Origin: an archaeon 13_2_20CM_2_53_6
GTDB taxonomy: Archaea > Thermoproteota > Bathyarchaeia > 40CM-2-53-6
Reading direction: 5' to 3'
NCBI GenBank assembly: GCA_001915065.1
Contig: MNDT01000007.1
Location: 1 to 37,921 of the forward strand
DNA length: 37,921 nt
Below are positions 8,634-32,179 of this stretch, piece by piece (the stretch's first letter is position 1; each line of letters opens with the position of its first letter). The notes below the pieces were generated by a model, which worked only from the letters and a program-made list of their open reading frames with translations, had not been told where the DNA came from and did not search any database. Made by a program: the position numbers and the translations under genes.

Positions 8634-8699
8634 ACTGGACGGATTAGACTCCAAAAAGCTTGAAAAGCACGGTGGTAAGCCGGGTTGTTCCGTTCCTCC

Positions 8700-9899
8700 T
8701 TGAGCACAATCAGCCCAGACGAGTACTTCGACAGTGTGCATCGTATTGTCTCTCTTCTCGACGGAGAAAATGTAACGATTCTAAGAACTATGAAGCAGCA
8801 TGGCCCTAGAAATCTGCTCGAGATCGCTCGTAAGGCCAAGCTTCCGTACACCACGGTCTACAACCGGGTGACCAAGCTGGAGAATCAGGGAGTTCTAAAG
8901 ACGTGGATCTATCCGAATTATTCCAAGATTGGTCTGAGTAGAGCTGTTGTCTTGGCGACGCCCCATCCTGGAAAGGAGGCGCTTGCGAGAGAAGCGTTGA
9001 AGGTCCCGGGGTTCTGGCTGAAGGTCGCTCGCTGTCTAGGGGATACTAATGGATATTACTCGCAGCATGCGGTGCCCACATCTAATCGTCAGGATTTCGA
9101 GCTGTATCTAGAGCAGCTGTTGGAGCGTGGGGTAGTCAAGTCTTACCGGGTCTTCTGGCTGGGTGATGCAGGTTTCCCGTTGACGAACTTTGACTATTTC
9201 AAACCCAAGGATCGAACCTGGAAGTTCGACTGGAAAGGATGGCTCGACAAGCTGACATCTGTCCGGGCCAAGGCCGAGACGACTAGACACGCGACTCCTC
9301 AGCCTGAGCCATTTGACGAGAGAGACCTGATCATTCTCAAGGAGCTAACGAAAGATGCGAGAACGACTCTAGCTGATCTGTCGAAACTTCTTTCGCTTAC
9401 GTTGCCTGCGACGAAGTATCGGTTCGACAAGCTGGTTGCCCGTGGATTGGTCCAGGAGTATGTGATAGATCTGCTACCCTTTGCTCCCCAGATATCTAAG
9501 CTGTTTGATGTGCGCCTGGATTTCAAGAACGAGAGTTCTATGCGTGCGGTCGAGAACGCAATATCGGAGGTTCCGATCGTACAGAGCTACTCTCTGATAA
9601 CCGGTCTGAACTCGATGACGGTCAGAATATATCTCCCACAAGTGGAAGTCAGCAATCTCTTCGCCTTCCTATCACTGCTAGTGTCGAAGGGAGTCTTAAC
9701 CAACTACTCCTACTTGATCATCGATCCTATGACTATTCAGTCGCAGACGTTCTCCTACAAACAGTTCAAGAATGAGACTGGGTGGGACTATGACAGCCGA
9801 GAATACCTGAAGACTGTGGACAGCCTAACGCCCAAGTGGACCAAGACAGAGATCGAGCCGAACTATCAGACCCTCCCCCCGCTTTCAATACACATTTAG
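8700..9899 (+). CDS. transcriptional regulator with two Lrp/AsnC-type winged helices
   Basis: A DNA-binding protein of about 399 residues with two winged-helix units. The first (LDGENVTILRTMKQHGPRN, then EIARKAKLPYTTVYNRVTKLENQGVLK) is near the N-terminus. The second, after about residue 200, reads FDERDLIILKELTKDARTTLADLSKLLSLTLPATKYRFDKLVARGLV, the AsnC-type helix-turn-helix. Each is followed by an alpha/beta segment that may be an effector or dimer module. TTG 8700 (MSTISPDEYF) is favoured over TTG 8685, because the added residues are not conserved-looking. Targets are unknown. The hairpin-dense region lies directly upstream and may act in its control. Confidence 0.8.
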   Translation: MSTISPDEYFDSVHRIVSLLDGENVTILRTMKQHGPRNLLEIARKAKLPYTTVYNRVTKLENQGVLKTWIYPNYSKIGLSRAVVLATPHPGKEALAREALKVPGFWLKVARCLGDTNGYYSQHAVPTSNRQDFELYLEQLLERGVVKSYRVFWLGDAGFPLTNFDYFKPKDRTWKFDWKGWLDKLTSVRAKAETTRHATPQPEPFDERDLIILKELTKDARTTLADLSKLLSLTLPATKYRFDKLVARGLVQEYVIDLLPFAPQISKLFDVRLDFKNESSMRAVENAISEVPIVQSYSLITGLNSMTVRIYLPQVEVSNLFAFLSLLVSKGVLTNYSYLIIDPMTIQSQTFSYKQFKNETGWDYDSREYLKTVDSLTPKWTKTEIEPNYQTLPPLSIHI

Positions 9900-10341: not shown

Positions 10342-10410
10342 CCATATACGATTTTTCCGGCCACCGAAATTCCTCGAAGAGGACCGTGCTGACTAGTCAT
10401 TTCACACTAC

Positions 10411-10420
10411 TTTTTTAAAC
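10411..10420 (+). promoter_or_regulatory. TATA box of the NrdD-like gene
   Basis: TTTTTTAAAC lies about 36 bases before the TTG start at 10452, predicting initiation about 10 bases ahead of the start codon. Confidence 0.45.
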
Positions 10421-10451: not shown

Positions 10452-12698
10452 TTGCAGCGTTCCTATGAGCGTTTCAGCTCTGAGGTTCTTGACGCTGCTT
10501 CTGCTCCTGTCCGGCTGCACGTTCTCAAGCTCCTCGTGTCGAAGGGTCCCCTCCCGTATACTGAGATAATGTACGAGGTGAAGCTCGATCCTGTACGGGA
10601 CGCCGGCAAGTTCGTCTACCACCTCAAGACGTTAAGGAAGGCCGGTCTGGTTTCGATCGAAAAAGGCACGAAAAAGTACAGCATAACCGAGCTTGGAAAG
10701 ATTCTGGTCGAGTTCTCCCGGGACCTAGAAGAGTACATCGCCGTAAAACGTGGTAGACTGTTCGTCCGCACTTCCCGAATGACCATAGATGAGTTCGACC
10801 GTACAAGAATCGCCCGATCACTCGTCAGCGAAGCTGGAATGCCTCAAACCCTCGCAGACGAAGTCGCCGCAGAGGCAGAGGATAGACTTCTCAAGTTCGG
10901 GATCGTCTATCTCAGCGCTCCCCTGATTAGAGAGCTAGTCAACACAATCCTCATCGAGAGGAAGCTAGAGGAGTATCGCCACAAACTTACACGGCTGGGA
11001 CTACCCGTCAACGATGTAACAGTGCTACTGCGGGAGGCAGGCCAGAAACACCTGGATGCGAACTGGGTCCAAAAATCCGCAGGAGAAAAAGTCACCGAAG
11101 AGTACGTCCTGCTCAACAGCCTTCCGCGCGCCACAGTTGATGCACATCTCTCAGGTCAGATGCACCTCGAGGATGCAGCGTCGTGGATTCTGAAACCCAG
11201 CGTTTTCTTTCACGAGACCAGCCTCTTCTTCCATAGAGGGACACCGGCGACCAGCCCTCCCTCATCCCTCGAAGATGCTCTAGAGTCCGTCCTGAAGATT
11301 GTACGAACCGCAGAACGAGAAGTCTCCAGCGAACAGGTCTTCGATCACTTCAACATCAGCCTCGCACCCTTCATCAGAGGACTCCCACGCCAACGCGTCC
11401 AAGACGCGATCAGACGGCTCATCTACCACCTCAACTGGGACGGCTTCTCCAACACAATCCCGGCCCAAGTAACAATAGGGCTAGACCATCTAATCCCGAG
11501 TCACCTGCAGAATCGAGAAGCAGTAGGTCCAAACGGAAAAGGCGAAGGAATCTACTCCGACTTTTCACGAGAAGCCGAAGAACTATTCACAACAATAATC
11601 GATGCAAGTCTAGAAATCGGCCGTCAGCAGCCCATCCTCAATCCATCTGTCATTGTACGGACCCCCAACGGAAAGACGGAGACCACGGACGAGCTTCTCG
11701 ACCTGGCCTTCGAGAGTTCCGCCAAATACTCGATTCCCAACTTCTTGATACAACCCTCAGAACAGACCTTTTCGATGTCTTCTGAGGGACCAATTCTTCT
11801 CGAAGACAGAGACGCGGCGAGAGGGGCAGGCGCTGTTATCGGAACCGTGCAGCTTAACGTGCCCCGAGCCGCCTACGAGGCATCGGGAAAGGATGAGCGG
11901 TTCCTCCAGGCGGTCCAGTCCGGAACTCTCGAAGCAGTAAAGGCTCTGCAACTGAGACAACAAGCCATCAACGAGAGAGTGTCCGAAGGAGTCTTGCCAC
12001 TATTGGCATGGCAGGCAGACGGAGGAGCCTATTACGATTCGAGAAGAACTCAGGGAGAGATTGGCCTGCTGGGGCTCGCAGAGGCAGTCAAGTATCATAC
12101 TCAGAACGAGATCTGGGAGAAATCGAACATCGCTTTTTCCCGGAAGACCGTAGAGGCGGCGAGGCGAGCGGTAGCAGAGGCCGACGTCCGCGATATCAGA
12201 GTAAGAGTAGGCATTCACTCTTCACCCCAAGCATCAGCCCGGCTTGCCTCCATAGATGCCGAGAAGTATGGATTCTCAACCGTTGTCTATCAAGGATCGA
12301 AAAAGTATCCATACTACAATGACGTGCCCGCGATCCCGCTTACCCAGAAAGTTCCCATGACAACCCGGGCATCAGTCGAGGGGGAATTACAGAGAGTCTT
12401 CGACGGAGGCTCGTTACTCCCACTGATGGGAGGAGCAAGAGTAGACAAGTCAGCGTTGCTCAAGGCTTCAAGACAGCTGGAAGAGGCCGGCGTCCGCTAC
12501 TTCACGTTCACGTCATTCTACTCCCGCTGCAGACGATGCTACAATACGAGCAAAGGGGTCCAGGCGAGATGCGATAAATGCGGATTCGAACATTTGACAA
12601 TTCTATCGAAGCTCGGGGGAAGGATGCTGCCCTTGGACATGCTGTCGGAGGCGCGGAAGAGAGACCTCGATCACATCATTCCGTATGATTTCTCATAG
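10452..12698 (+). CDS. winged-helix / ATP-cone / NrdD-like protein lacking catalytic cysteines
   Basis: A 748-residue fusion. Residues 1-85 form an ArsR-like winged helix (APVRLHVLKLLVSKG ... FVYHLKTLRKAGLVSIEKGTKKYSIT). Residues about 95-195 look like an ATP-cone nucleotide-binding domain (FVRTSRMTIDEFDRTRIARSL). The rest resembles class III (anaerobic) ribonucleotide reductase: LLNSLPRATVDAHLSGQMHLEDA, GAVIGTVQLNVPRAAYEA, RYFTFTSFYSRC. The only cysteines are C693, C696, C707 and C710, the zinc knuckle. The segment that in NrdD carries the active-site Cys reads SMSS (441-444), and the glycyl-radical loop reads KLGGR (720-724) instead of RVxGY. Reductase chemistry should be impossible. A nucleotide-sensing transcription factor built from an RNR is the likely reading. 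Start is TTG. Confidence 0.8.
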   Translation: MQRSYERFSSEVLDAASAPVRLHVLKLLVSKGPLPYTEIMYEVKLDPVRDAGKFVYHLKTLRKAGLVSIEKGTKKYSITELGKILVEFSRDLEEYIAVKRGRLFVRTSRMTIDEFDRTRIARSLVSEAGMPQTLADEVAAEAEDRLLKFGIVYLSAPLIRELVNTILIERKLEEYRHKLTRLGLPVNDVTVLLREAGQKHLDANWVQKSAGEKVTEEYVLLNSLPRATVDAHLSGQMHLEDAASWILKPSVFFHETSLFFHRGTPATSPPSSLEDALESVLKIVRTAEREVSSEQVFDHFNISLAPFIRGLPRQRVQDAIRRLIYHLNWDGFSNTIPAQVTIGLDHLIPSHLQNREAVGPNGKGEGIYSDFSREAEELFTTIIDASLEIGRQQPILNPSVIVRTPNGKTETTDELLDLAFESSAKYSIPNFLIQPSEQTFSMSSEGPILLEDRDAARGAGAVIGTVQLNVPRAAYEASGKDERFLQAVQSGTLEAVKALQLRQQAINERVSEGVLPLLAWQADGGAYYDSRRTQGEIGLLGLAEAVKYHTQNEIWEKSNIAFSRKTVEAARRAVAEADVRDIRVRVGIHSSPQASARLASIDAEKYGFSTVVYQGSKKYPYYNDVPAIPLTQKVPMTTRASVEGELQRVFDGGSLLPLMGGARVDKSALLKASRQLEEAGVRYFTFTSFYSRCRRCYNTSKGVQARCDKCGFEHLTILSKLGGRMLPLDMLSEARKRDLDHIIPYDFS

Positions 12699-14095: not shown

Positions 14096-15446
<1,351 letters not shown>

Positions 15447-29599: not shown

Positions 29600-32179
29600 C
29601 TAAGAGGACGGAGGACTGGCCGCTCCGGCTCCCGAATCAGGAGGCTTGGAAAGGGTTGCTGCAGAGGAAGGGGGAGGCGACGATCGGGCGAGCAGCTCTT
29701 TTTCCCTTTGTCTCTGACCCCGTCGACGGATCAGTCTGTATGTCTCGACGATCGGCGTCAGGAGCAGCGGGACTAGGAGGAGGTACGAGTAGGGCTGGAA
29801 GTCGCCGAAGGTCCGGGTGAACTGTATCCATGGGCCGCTGAGGGAGTCGATCTGCGCTGGGTCCGTGTTGATCGTGTAGGATATCGTGGTGCCATTGGGA
29901 GCTGCCCAGTCGAAGCTGACTGTTGAGGGCGACATAGCGTAGATTCCGCTACTTTCCGTGGTTACGGTATAGCTCATCGGGGGCAGACGAGTTCCGGGGG
30001 GGACTATAGGGGACTGGACGGTCTGGGTGCCAGAGGGCGAGATCTGTAGAGTTTGCAAATACGGCGGTGATGCCTCAATGTCTGATCCGGTCAGGTTGCT
30101 GACCGTCACGTTGTCCAGGTTTTGGATTGTAACAACAACGACGTGGACTGTCCCGACTGGTCCCGTCGTGGGAGTAATCGTCTTCTGGATTACTATGTCA
30201 GGAGCAAACGGATAGTCGAAAGCGGCAGTGAAATCGGATTGCGGACTCGTGACGTTGAGGTAGTAGGTCGAATTGTAGAAGTATGTCTGAGGAGGGTTTT
30301 GTGGGCTGTAGAGGATTGTCCCGGGCTGGAAACTGATGCCGATGAGCGAAACGTTGGCCACCGGGTCCGCGACAATATTGTTCTGAAAGCCGAGGAGAGA
30401 CTTCAAGCTGAGTTGGTGAGTGCCTCCCTTGTAGTATTCACGCGGATATTGGATGTGCATGTAGAAGCTTAGAGAATTGATCGTTGCTCCCTTAATCTGA
30501 AGCGGCACCAATCCTATGGCAGCGAAATATTTCATGTTCTGGATGCTTGCAGGGTTGATGAGTGATGAGAAACTCTGGCTAGGGAGCAGACTTAGAAGTC
30601 TTATGAGCGCATCATTGTTGGAGAGTTCCGGGTTTGGCGCGTAGATGTTGGCGCTGCCCCCTTGCCCCATGGGCAGTGAGAATACTGTCGTGAATGGGAC
30701 GCCAAGTGCTTGGGAGAACTGGGCCTCGACGGCTCTCGACTGTGAGGCCGTGACTTTTGCGCTTTGATTGTAGTATGTTATGAGTGCCGGCTGGGATATG
30801 ATCTGCAGGAACTGGCCCTGTCCGTTTCCGAAAGCCTGTGAATCGTTATTGTTGACAATGAACGCCGCTACCATTGCACCTGCATAGTTGCTGTCGATGG
30901 TCAGTCCTTGGCTTGATAGGTCGAGGTTTGTCATCTCGAGAGTCGCGTTAGGTGCGCCCAGCATGTCTAGGCCGATACCCAGGCGTTGGTCGTAGGGCCC
31001 TGGTGTCGGAGCTTGAATCATGGGATGTGAGGTGGTCAGGTTTGGGATCGCGAAGAACGGTAGAAGTGTGAGTAGGAGTAATGCGGTCTTCAATGTAGGT
31101 CTGTCAGATATTTTCTGGTTGGCCGTCAGGGTTGGTTTTCTTCGAATCCCGACAAAGACGTACTTTACTAGGTCAATGCCCGCTTGCCAACTCAGACAGG
31201 CTGCTCGTCCGGAGATTGTGACTATTGCAAAGATGAGACCCGCGTTCCTGGTGAGTGTCAGAGCCATGCTCTGGATGAACTCTGGGTCGGTAGGCGAGGC
31301 GGCTTGGAGGAAGAGAGGGAGAAGGTCGCTGGCGACTGGGCCAGTCGCGGCACTGACGAGTGAGAAGCCTGCGGGTGGCGGGGGGATTCCGGAGAGACTG
31401 CCTGATGTGAGACCTTGGAAGATGCTGAGGGCTGCGAGCCCCATCGCGCCTAGGGTGGAGAGGAAGACTGCGAGACCGACCATGAATCCGCGTCCGACCT
31501 TTCCGCCCGCGATGATTCCTCCTAGAAGGCCGGCTGTGACCCAGAGCTGGAAGACTGGTGGATAGGTGAGTGGGTTGGTGAAGATGAGGTAGACGGCGAC
31601 CATGAGAGTGTTGAAATGGACTCCGAGGACTGGTGAGAGCCAGTCACTGACGCTTCTAAGCCCGGCTGGTAGTTGGGTGTAGCCGATGTATAGGACGAGT
31701 AGGTATGCCGCCGCCCAACCGATGTAGCGCCCGAGGAATAGTCCTTCGCTCGGGTGCGGTAGAAGATAGACCGTTCTAGGATCATCGGGCCTACGTTTTA
31801 CCATAACGCTGCCGATACGCATGTACAGAAGGATGTAGAGGATCCCGGGGATTACGCCTGCTACGACGAAGCCAAGAATCGCAGCAGACAGGCTGGACCC
31901 TCTGGCTTTCTCGAACTCTCTCGACGCGATTCTCTCTCTAATTCGAGACCCCTTTCCAGCTGCTATGACGCAGCCGATTGCTAGTACTAGGAGGGCGATT
32001 GGAAATGGTTGATACGCGAGGAGGCCTGGGACCCACGTCGGAAGCGTGGCGATGATCACGGTGCTGACTAGGATTCCAAGGGCACGCGTAAATGAACTAC
32101 AGACGAGAGCGATTGTGGCTGCTCGCCTGATCTCCTTCGGCGCATCTTTCAACGCCTGAAACGGTGGAGCCTCGGCCAC
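29600..32179 (-). CDS. large multispanning membrane protein with extracytoplasmic domain
   Basis: An 859-residue protein of unknown function. The first about 370 residues contain roughly nine or ten hydrophobic helices, some preceded by basic loops (RRAATIALV, KGSRIRERI, GIRRKP). The next about 430 residues are polar, rich in Asn/Ser/Thr and strand-like, with ten N-x-S/T sequons, so they are probably outside the cell and glycosylated. They include repeat-like IQNLDNVTVSNLTG (a CARDB/NEW3-like strand pattern). A final transmembrane helix (YSYLLLVPLLLTPIVETYRLI) is followed by a basic, Ser/Pro-rich cytoplasmic tail. Start is GTG 32179. It ends near the ORB site. No known family could be named. 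Confidence 0.75.
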   Translation of the reverse strand: MAEAPPFQALKDAPKEIRRAATIALVCSSFTRALGILVSTVIIATLPTWVPGLLAYQPFPIALLVLAIGCVIAAGKGSRIRERIASREFEKARGSSLSAAILGFVVAGVIPGILYILLYMRIGSVMVKRRPDDPRTVYLLPHPSEGLFLGRYIGWAAAYLLVLYIGYTQLPAGLRSVSDWLSPVLGVHFNTLMVAVYLIFTNPLTYPPVFQLWVTAGLLGGIIAGGKVGRGFMVGLAVFLSTLGAMGLAALSIFQGLTSGSLSGIPPPPAGFSLVSAATGPVASDLLPLFLQAASPTDPEFIQSMALTLTRNAGLIFAIVTISGRAACLSWQAGIDLVKYVFVGIRRKPTLTANQKISDRPTLKTALLLLTLLPFFAIPNLTTSHPMIQAPTPGPYDQRLGIGLDMLGAPNATLEMTNLDLSSQGLTIDSNYAGAMVAAFIVNNNDSQAFGNGQGQFLQIISQPALITYYNQSAKVTASQSRAVEAQFSQALGVPFTTVFSLPMGQGGSANIYAPNPELSNNDALIRLLSLLPSQSFSSLINPASIQNMKYFAAIGLVPLQIKGATINSLSFYMHIQYPREYYKGGTHQLSLKSLLGFQNNIVADPVANVSLIGISFQPGTILYSPQNPPQTYFYNSTYYLNVTSPQSDFTAAFDYPFAPDIVIQKTITPTTGPVGTVHVVVVTIQNLDNVTVSNLTGSDIEASPPYLQTLQISPSGTQTVQSPIVPPGTRLPPMSYTVTTESSGIYAMSPSTVSFDWAAPNGTTISYTINTDPAQIDSLSGPWIQFTRTFGDFQPYSYLLLVPLLLTPIVETYRLIRRRGQRQREKELLARSSPPPSSAATLSKPPDSGAGAASPPSS

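Follow-up and report, generated by a model that had tools for sequence, protein, structure and literature searches.

The window, by which we mean the whole 37,921-nt stretch of archaeal DNA that was analysed, contains a forward-strand gene (10452..12698) for a 748-aa protein in which a winged helix-turn-helix (wHTH) domain and an ATP-cone are followed by a dead copy of the class III ribonucleotide reductase NrdD. We consider it likely (probability about 0.75) that this protein, which would have arisen by duplication of NrdD, regulates the transcription of ribonucleotide reductase (RNR) genes as a functional counterpart of NrdR; its DNA binding, nucleotide sensing, ligand, targets and direction of regulation, as well as its connection with the palindrome described below, are all inferred. 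The reading frame is intact, its TTG start is kept across the window's genus, and a TATA-like promoter element, CTTTTTTAAA (10410..10419, forward strand), lies about 33 nt 5′ of the start codon, as supported by a phylogenetic footprint in the genus without experimental mapping. The source genome is a MAG of Bathyarchaeota type, and its nearest named relatives are soil MAGs of Candidatus Bathyarchaeota, the closest being 96% identical.

Pfam places DUF7347/HTH_20 at residues 11-86 of the protein, the ATP-cone at 104-175 and NRDD at 208-713. The N-terminal domain (aa 1-98; 10452..10745, forward strand) is an ArsR/MarR-type wHTH according to Pfam (PF24038/DUF7347, 29.1 bits, over its cut-off; PF12840, E 1.6e-5) and to an AlphaFold model of residues 1-200, which shows an ArsR/SmtB/MarR winged helix followed by the ATP-cone region, with pLDDT of about 90 over residues 11-90. 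Foldseek matched this winged helix to CzrA, SmtB and CadC with TM (target) values of 0.7-0.8 and E of about 0.01-0.04. The ATP-cone (aa 104-190; 10761..11021, forward strand; Pfam and alignment) scored slightly under the Pfam cut-off in the window protein (PF03477, E 1.5e-4), and the cone of an ammonia-oxidiser ortholog reached 37.9 bits, over the cut-off. Its lid reads RTSR in place of the canonical KRDG, which is also missing from many live sister enzymes, and this loss leaves the ligand of the cone unsettled. The remainder (aa 208-748; 11073..12695, forward strand) comprises an NrdD-like ten-stranded barrel and a C-terminal zinc domain, as indicated by the NRDD profile (PF13597, E 3.9e-51) and by a full-length AlphaFold model (built on 36 relatives, pLDDT 87) compared with 4u3e, 4coj and 8p2s; against solved class III RNRs this model gave Foldseek E values of about 1e-26 (2.8e-26 for 4u3e). 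Under the NrdD equivalog TIGR02487, whose cut-off is 326 bits, the window protein scored only 162 bits, whereas live NrdDs encoded in tandem with family members scored 485 and 518. No match of the window protein to TIGR00244 (NrdR) was listed in the profile search.

An alignment of 80 distinct wHTH proteins with 42 NrdDs lacking the wHTH, E. coli NrdD included, shows that the window protein is a catalytically dead NrdD, with both cysteines and the NxN flap lost and the glycyl loop broken. The essential barrel cysteine (E. coli C175) is found in 42/42 live NrdDs and in none of the 80 wHTH members, its place being taken in the window protein by V251 (11202..11204, forward strand). In the finger loop (aa 441-447; 11772..11792, forward strand), where live NrdDs read MCCR, QCCR or MGCR, the window protein reads SMSSEGP; the thiyl-radical cysteine (E. 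coli C384) aligns with P447, beside SMSS at 441-444, and the position holds Cys in all 42 live enzymes but a lone, non-conserved Cys in only 11 of the 80, among which the CC pair of the loop is absent throughout. The glycyl-radical loop is reduced to KLGGR (aa 720-724; 12609..12623, forward strand), in which G723 aligns with the radical glycine (E. coli G681; Gly is present there in 22 members), but the Arg and Tyr of R[VI]xGY are lost, the former to Lys and the latter to R724. That tyrosine is kept in 40 of the 42 live NrdDs (with Phe in one more) and in 3/80 wHTH members, and R[VI]xG[YF] occurs at the aligned loop in 41/42 of the former and 0/80 of the latter. The ENxN flap residues, present in 42/42 live NrdDs, fall in gaps in 77-80 of the 80 wHTH proteins; PMC11226230 describes the NxN flap and the Tyr after the radical Gly as functional elements of class III RNR, and this Tyr as highly conserved in NrdD. 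The zinc knuckle CxxC...CxxC (12528..12581, forward strand; alignment) is retained and holds every one of the exactly four cysteines of the window protein. The asparagine of the NLPR motif is an active-site residue of live NrdD enzymes. It is invariant in 80/80 wHTH members, so the barrel may still bind a ligand.

These results bear on a first-pass annotation made from sequence alone. The order it had read, namely winged helix, ATP-cone, NrdD-like barrel and zinc knuckle, held in Pfam and in the models, and structure prediction returned the ArsR/MarR-like winged helix that it had claimed. Its assignment of all four cysteines to the zinc knuckle (693, 696, 707 and 710) also held, as did SMSS at the place of the radical-accepting cysteine, with the refinement that the aligned residue is P447. 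Its description of KLGGR as a lost glycyl loop held only in part, with Gly723 still at the radical position and the surrounding context lost. An intact catalytic Cys or Gly loop was looked for in the alignment and not found. Its proposal of a nucleotide-sensing transcription factor evolved from the enzyme itself is supported, with nucleotide and DNA binding remaining inferences.

Purifying selection acts across the wHTH family. The ATP-cone is its most conserved domain, with a mean majority residue of 0.72 per column and 34% of columns at least 90% conserved, followed by the HTH (mean column identity 0.61) and, lowest, the barrel (about 0.45); live NrdDs show the opposite order, with 0.49 for the cone and about 0.55 for the barrel. 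Compared with four congeners, the dead-NrdD gene has an overall dN/dS of 0.08-0.11 (about 0.09), with 0.02-0.05 for HTH and cone in three of the four comparisons and 0.09-0.12 for the barrel. This pattern points to the sensor and DNA-binding parts as those under strongest constraint, where the binding of DNA and of nucleotides is by inference only.

Across the sampled part of the phylum, 223 of 398 genomes carry the wHTH plus ATP-cone module, as do 88 of 163 genera, and all but two of these genomes have a single copy. Archaeal amoA was found in seven tested genomes from three of the module-carrying families, indicating that these three families are ammonia oxidisers. The NrdR profile exceeded its cut-off in only 1 of 61 relatives, against 9 of 14 control genomes in the same search. 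A FastTree phylogeny built on the NrdD region places all wHTH members (68/68, support 0.70) in one monophyletic family, whose sister is a clade of live ATP-cone NrdDs that includes many tandem partners; both share an unusual RTS-type ATP-cone lid and the motifs PLIRE and TRLGLP. The simplest origin, on moderate tree support and with long branches present, is duplication of NrdD, perhaps in tandem, followed by fusion to a wHTH and decay of the active site.

Gene neighbourhoods connect the family with RNR. A live RNR gene lies within two genes downstream of the regulator gene, on the same strand, in 24 of about 80 loci from 12 families, the partner being NrdD in 12 loci (families f7, f16, f20, f21, f22, f24 and f44) and the class II enzyme NrdJ in the other 12 (f9, f26, f55, f58 and f68). 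Assuming three RNR genes per 1,800, such adjacency would be expected by chance in about 0.3% of genomes. In ammonia oxidisers, NrdJ stood next to the regulator in 9/9 loci examined. This neighbourhood survey, the monophyly described above and the strong conservation of the sensor module were all favourable to the first-pass annotation. Often the regulator gene is followed by RNR and next by a convergent pyrB and a divergent pyrI, with a thioredoxin- or glutaredoxin-like gene in some cases; in other families the RNR gene sits between regulator and pyrB. Either pyrB or pyrI is near the regulator in roughly half of about 80 loci, also without an RNR gene, and a convergent pyrB, frequently accompanied by pyrI, is conserved beside it across many families (about 40 loci). 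Some NrdD genes (L067, L068, L079, L080 and L081) carry long extra stretches in mid-gene or in the zinc region, reaching up to 1104 aa, which are possibly inteins.

In the window itself, a Na/H antiporter gene separates the dead-NrdD gene from pyrB (aspartate carbamoyltransferase; 14096..15088, reverse strand), its conserved convergent neighbour, and the RNR gene is absent from the order. The genome contains two class I/II-type RNR genes, both away from the dead-NrdD gene, and no live NrdD was found in it. Elsewhere in the window, a 404-aa protein with two matches to the Lrp/AsnC HTH is encoded just upstream of the dead-NrdD gene (8685-9899), and an 859-aa ORF on the reverse strand (29600-32179) has no Pfam match at 1e-5.

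A candidate operator was recognised in the window's genus, where a conserved block with the palindrome TTTATAC-N6-GTACAAA precedes a class II RNR gene; the copy in the window's own genome reads TTTATACCAATCAGTACAGA (G000:C42:31480-31499). The consensus TTTRTAC-N6-GTAYARA stands before RNR genes of class II or class III in five families, the window's and four others, the sites outside the discovery family being at NrdD in f4, f6 and f16 and at NrdJ in f3. In a promoter test restricted to loci collected ahead of the motif search, 12/33 NrdJ, 5/42 NrdD and 0/97 regulator promoters scored at least 13/14, as did 1/1229 others, and this single other promoter shares its site with an NrdJ gene. A later repetition of the test, including its validation count of 61 promoters and its Fisher value, was set aside because loci retrieved with the pattern itself had entered the controls and biased them; separately obtained rough Fisher values were likewise discounted. 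When 121 genomes of the class were scanned in full, the exact pattern turned up in 16 from the window's family and in two from f3, a single time in each. Most of these sites could be traced via the flanking gene, every traced one lying upstream of NrdJ, mostly by 50-100 bp, and the untraced ones agree with listed NrdJ positions. Away from RNR genes, the palindrome occurred at five sites in three genomes of other families; two non-RNR palindromes precede trpB-like genes (f11 and f14; L226/L233, L230) and are possibly sites of another regulator. The palindrome was not found near the second class II RNR gene in the window's genome, in the window with three mismatches allowed, or at most RNR promoters outside the five families. 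Its enrichment at RNR promoters makes an RNR operator very probable in these archaea; its recognition by the dead-NrdD protein is an inference without binding data.

No operator common to regulator and RNR promoters was recovered, whether from the genus or from the ammonia oxidisers; all that emerged was a conserved TATA-like box. In the ammonia oxidisers f55/f58 (L142-L150), a conserved TTTTACAAAG lies just upstream of the TATA-like TTTAAT of the regulator promoter; as a general motif of regulator promoters it received no support beyond f58/f55. In the window's family, a small conserved wHTH-like ORF of about 95 aa precedes the palindrome by about 1.4 kb (L163 7814-8101; L235-L236).

We propose that an ATP-cone class III RNR gene was duplicated and that one copy would have gained an N-terminal ArsR-type winged helix and lost its radical chemistry, while the ATP-cone and barrel would have been retained for ligand sensing and dimerisation. 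The NrdD-barrel dimer could then set two winged helices on a palindromic operator of RNR promoters, for which TTTRTAC-N6-GTAYARA is the candidate in Bathyarchaeia. Nucleotide bound at the ATP-cone, and possibly also in the dead active site, might shift the spacing of the winged helices or the oligomer, so that RNR transcription would be tuned to the dNTP pool by analogy with bacterial NrdR; repression is the more likely sign. Several observations count against this reading, which rests on computation alone: no RNR gene stands beside the regulator in the window's genome; the palindrome is absent from regulator promoters, from the second class II RNR gene of that genome and from most RNR promoters outside the five families, and in three genomes of other families it precedes unrelated genes; the cone has lost the KRDG lid; and some members retain a Gly at the radical position (22) or a lone Cys at the C384 position (11/80).

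Among the alternatives, the protein could be a dead subunit in complex with live NrdD or NrdJ, tuning that enzyme directly and using its winged helix for protein contact instead of DNA binding. The tandem gene order with NrdD or NrdJ, the retention of a full barrel resembling dimeric NrdD structures and the invariant NLPR asparagine (80/80) would fit this view, but live NrdD is missing from the window's genome, whose only RNR genes are two of class I/II type, the linkage extends to two RNR classes with differing dimers, and the winged helix is strongly conserved, so that we find a subunit role unlikely. It is also unlikely, though somewhat less so, that the palindrome is the operator of another regulator and that the dead-NrdD protein controls something else. 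The ORF of about 95 aa upstream of the palindrome, together with the lack of the palindrome in the regulator's own promoter, would favour this possibility; however, the small gene is not beside the palindrome in f3 (L225/L238), and the linkage of the dead-NrdD gene to RNR does not depend on the palindrome.

Regulation of pyrimidine synthesis (pyrB/pyrI) instead of RNR appears very unlikely. In its favour, pyrB is the conserved neighbour in the window's order, and pyrB or pyrI is nearby in about half of the loci even where RNR is missing; nevertheless, pyrB is convergent and outside the operon in nearly all loci, ammonia oxidisers keep the regulator-NrdJ pair even where pyrB is elsewhere, and the palindrome marks RNR promoters. 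A decaying pseudogene, or a conventional NrdD with a mis-assembled N-terminus, would account for the lost catalytic residues but is all but excluded by the identical architecture of 80 distinct sequences from many families, the low dN/dS, and the conserved TTG start and TATA box; the pseudogene reading is ruled out by dN/dS.

The reading that we prefer, a regulator of RNR transcription, could be extended to a bolder one, to which we give slightly more credence than to its negation: that archaea across the phylum, including the abundant ammonia oxidisers, possess RNR transcription factors derived from the enzyme, which would read nucleotide pools through the ATP-cone and the dead active site and, in the window's lineage, act at a genome-unique operator before an RNR gene. 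NrdR is reported to be rare in archaea (PMC9110341), thus transcript-level control of dNTP production has had no obvious candidate there. The dead-NrdD family provides a candidate dNTP regulator, which could be tested in cultured ammonia oxidisers. If the reading is true, RNR would have a second ATP-cone regulator, built independently of the first, in which an essential radical enzyme has been turned into a regulator of its own replacement. A further consequence concerns archaea that oxidise ammonia and are strictly aerobic: some of their "anaerobic ribonucleotide reductase" homologs are not enzymes. The literature searched yielded no account of the family, a weak absence given that only open-access papers were covered.

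With regard to known systems, the window protein is homologous throughout its shared parts to class III NrdD (PF13597; T. maritima 4coj/4u3e, P. copri 8p2s), with which it has in common the barrel, ATP-cone, zinc knuckle and the NLPR and GxxGxxE motifs, but it adds a winged helix and is without the radical Cys, C175, the NxN flap and R[VI]xGY. Residues 1-98 share the fold of the ArsR/SmtB and MarR repressors (CzrA 6cda, SmtB 8qkf, CadC 1u2w), from which the protein differs in its fusion to an ATP-cone and NrdD barrel and in its sub-threshold Pfam scores for HTH_20/HTH_5. NrdR, the bacterial Zn-ribbon/ATP-cone repressor (PMC9110341, PMC12176259), in which the ATP-cone determines the oligomeric state as well as DNA binding (PMC9110341), likewise combines a DNA-binding domain with an ATP-cone, is linked to more than one RNR class and has palindromes in RNR promoters, with binding by the dead-NrdD protein being inferred; in the latter, an ArsR-type winged helix replaces the Zn-ribbon, a full dead NrdD is present, and the protein is about five times longer. 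The dead-NrdD family does not qualify as a member of either NrdD or NrdR and stands beside NrdR in kind, with another DNA-binding domain and another origin.
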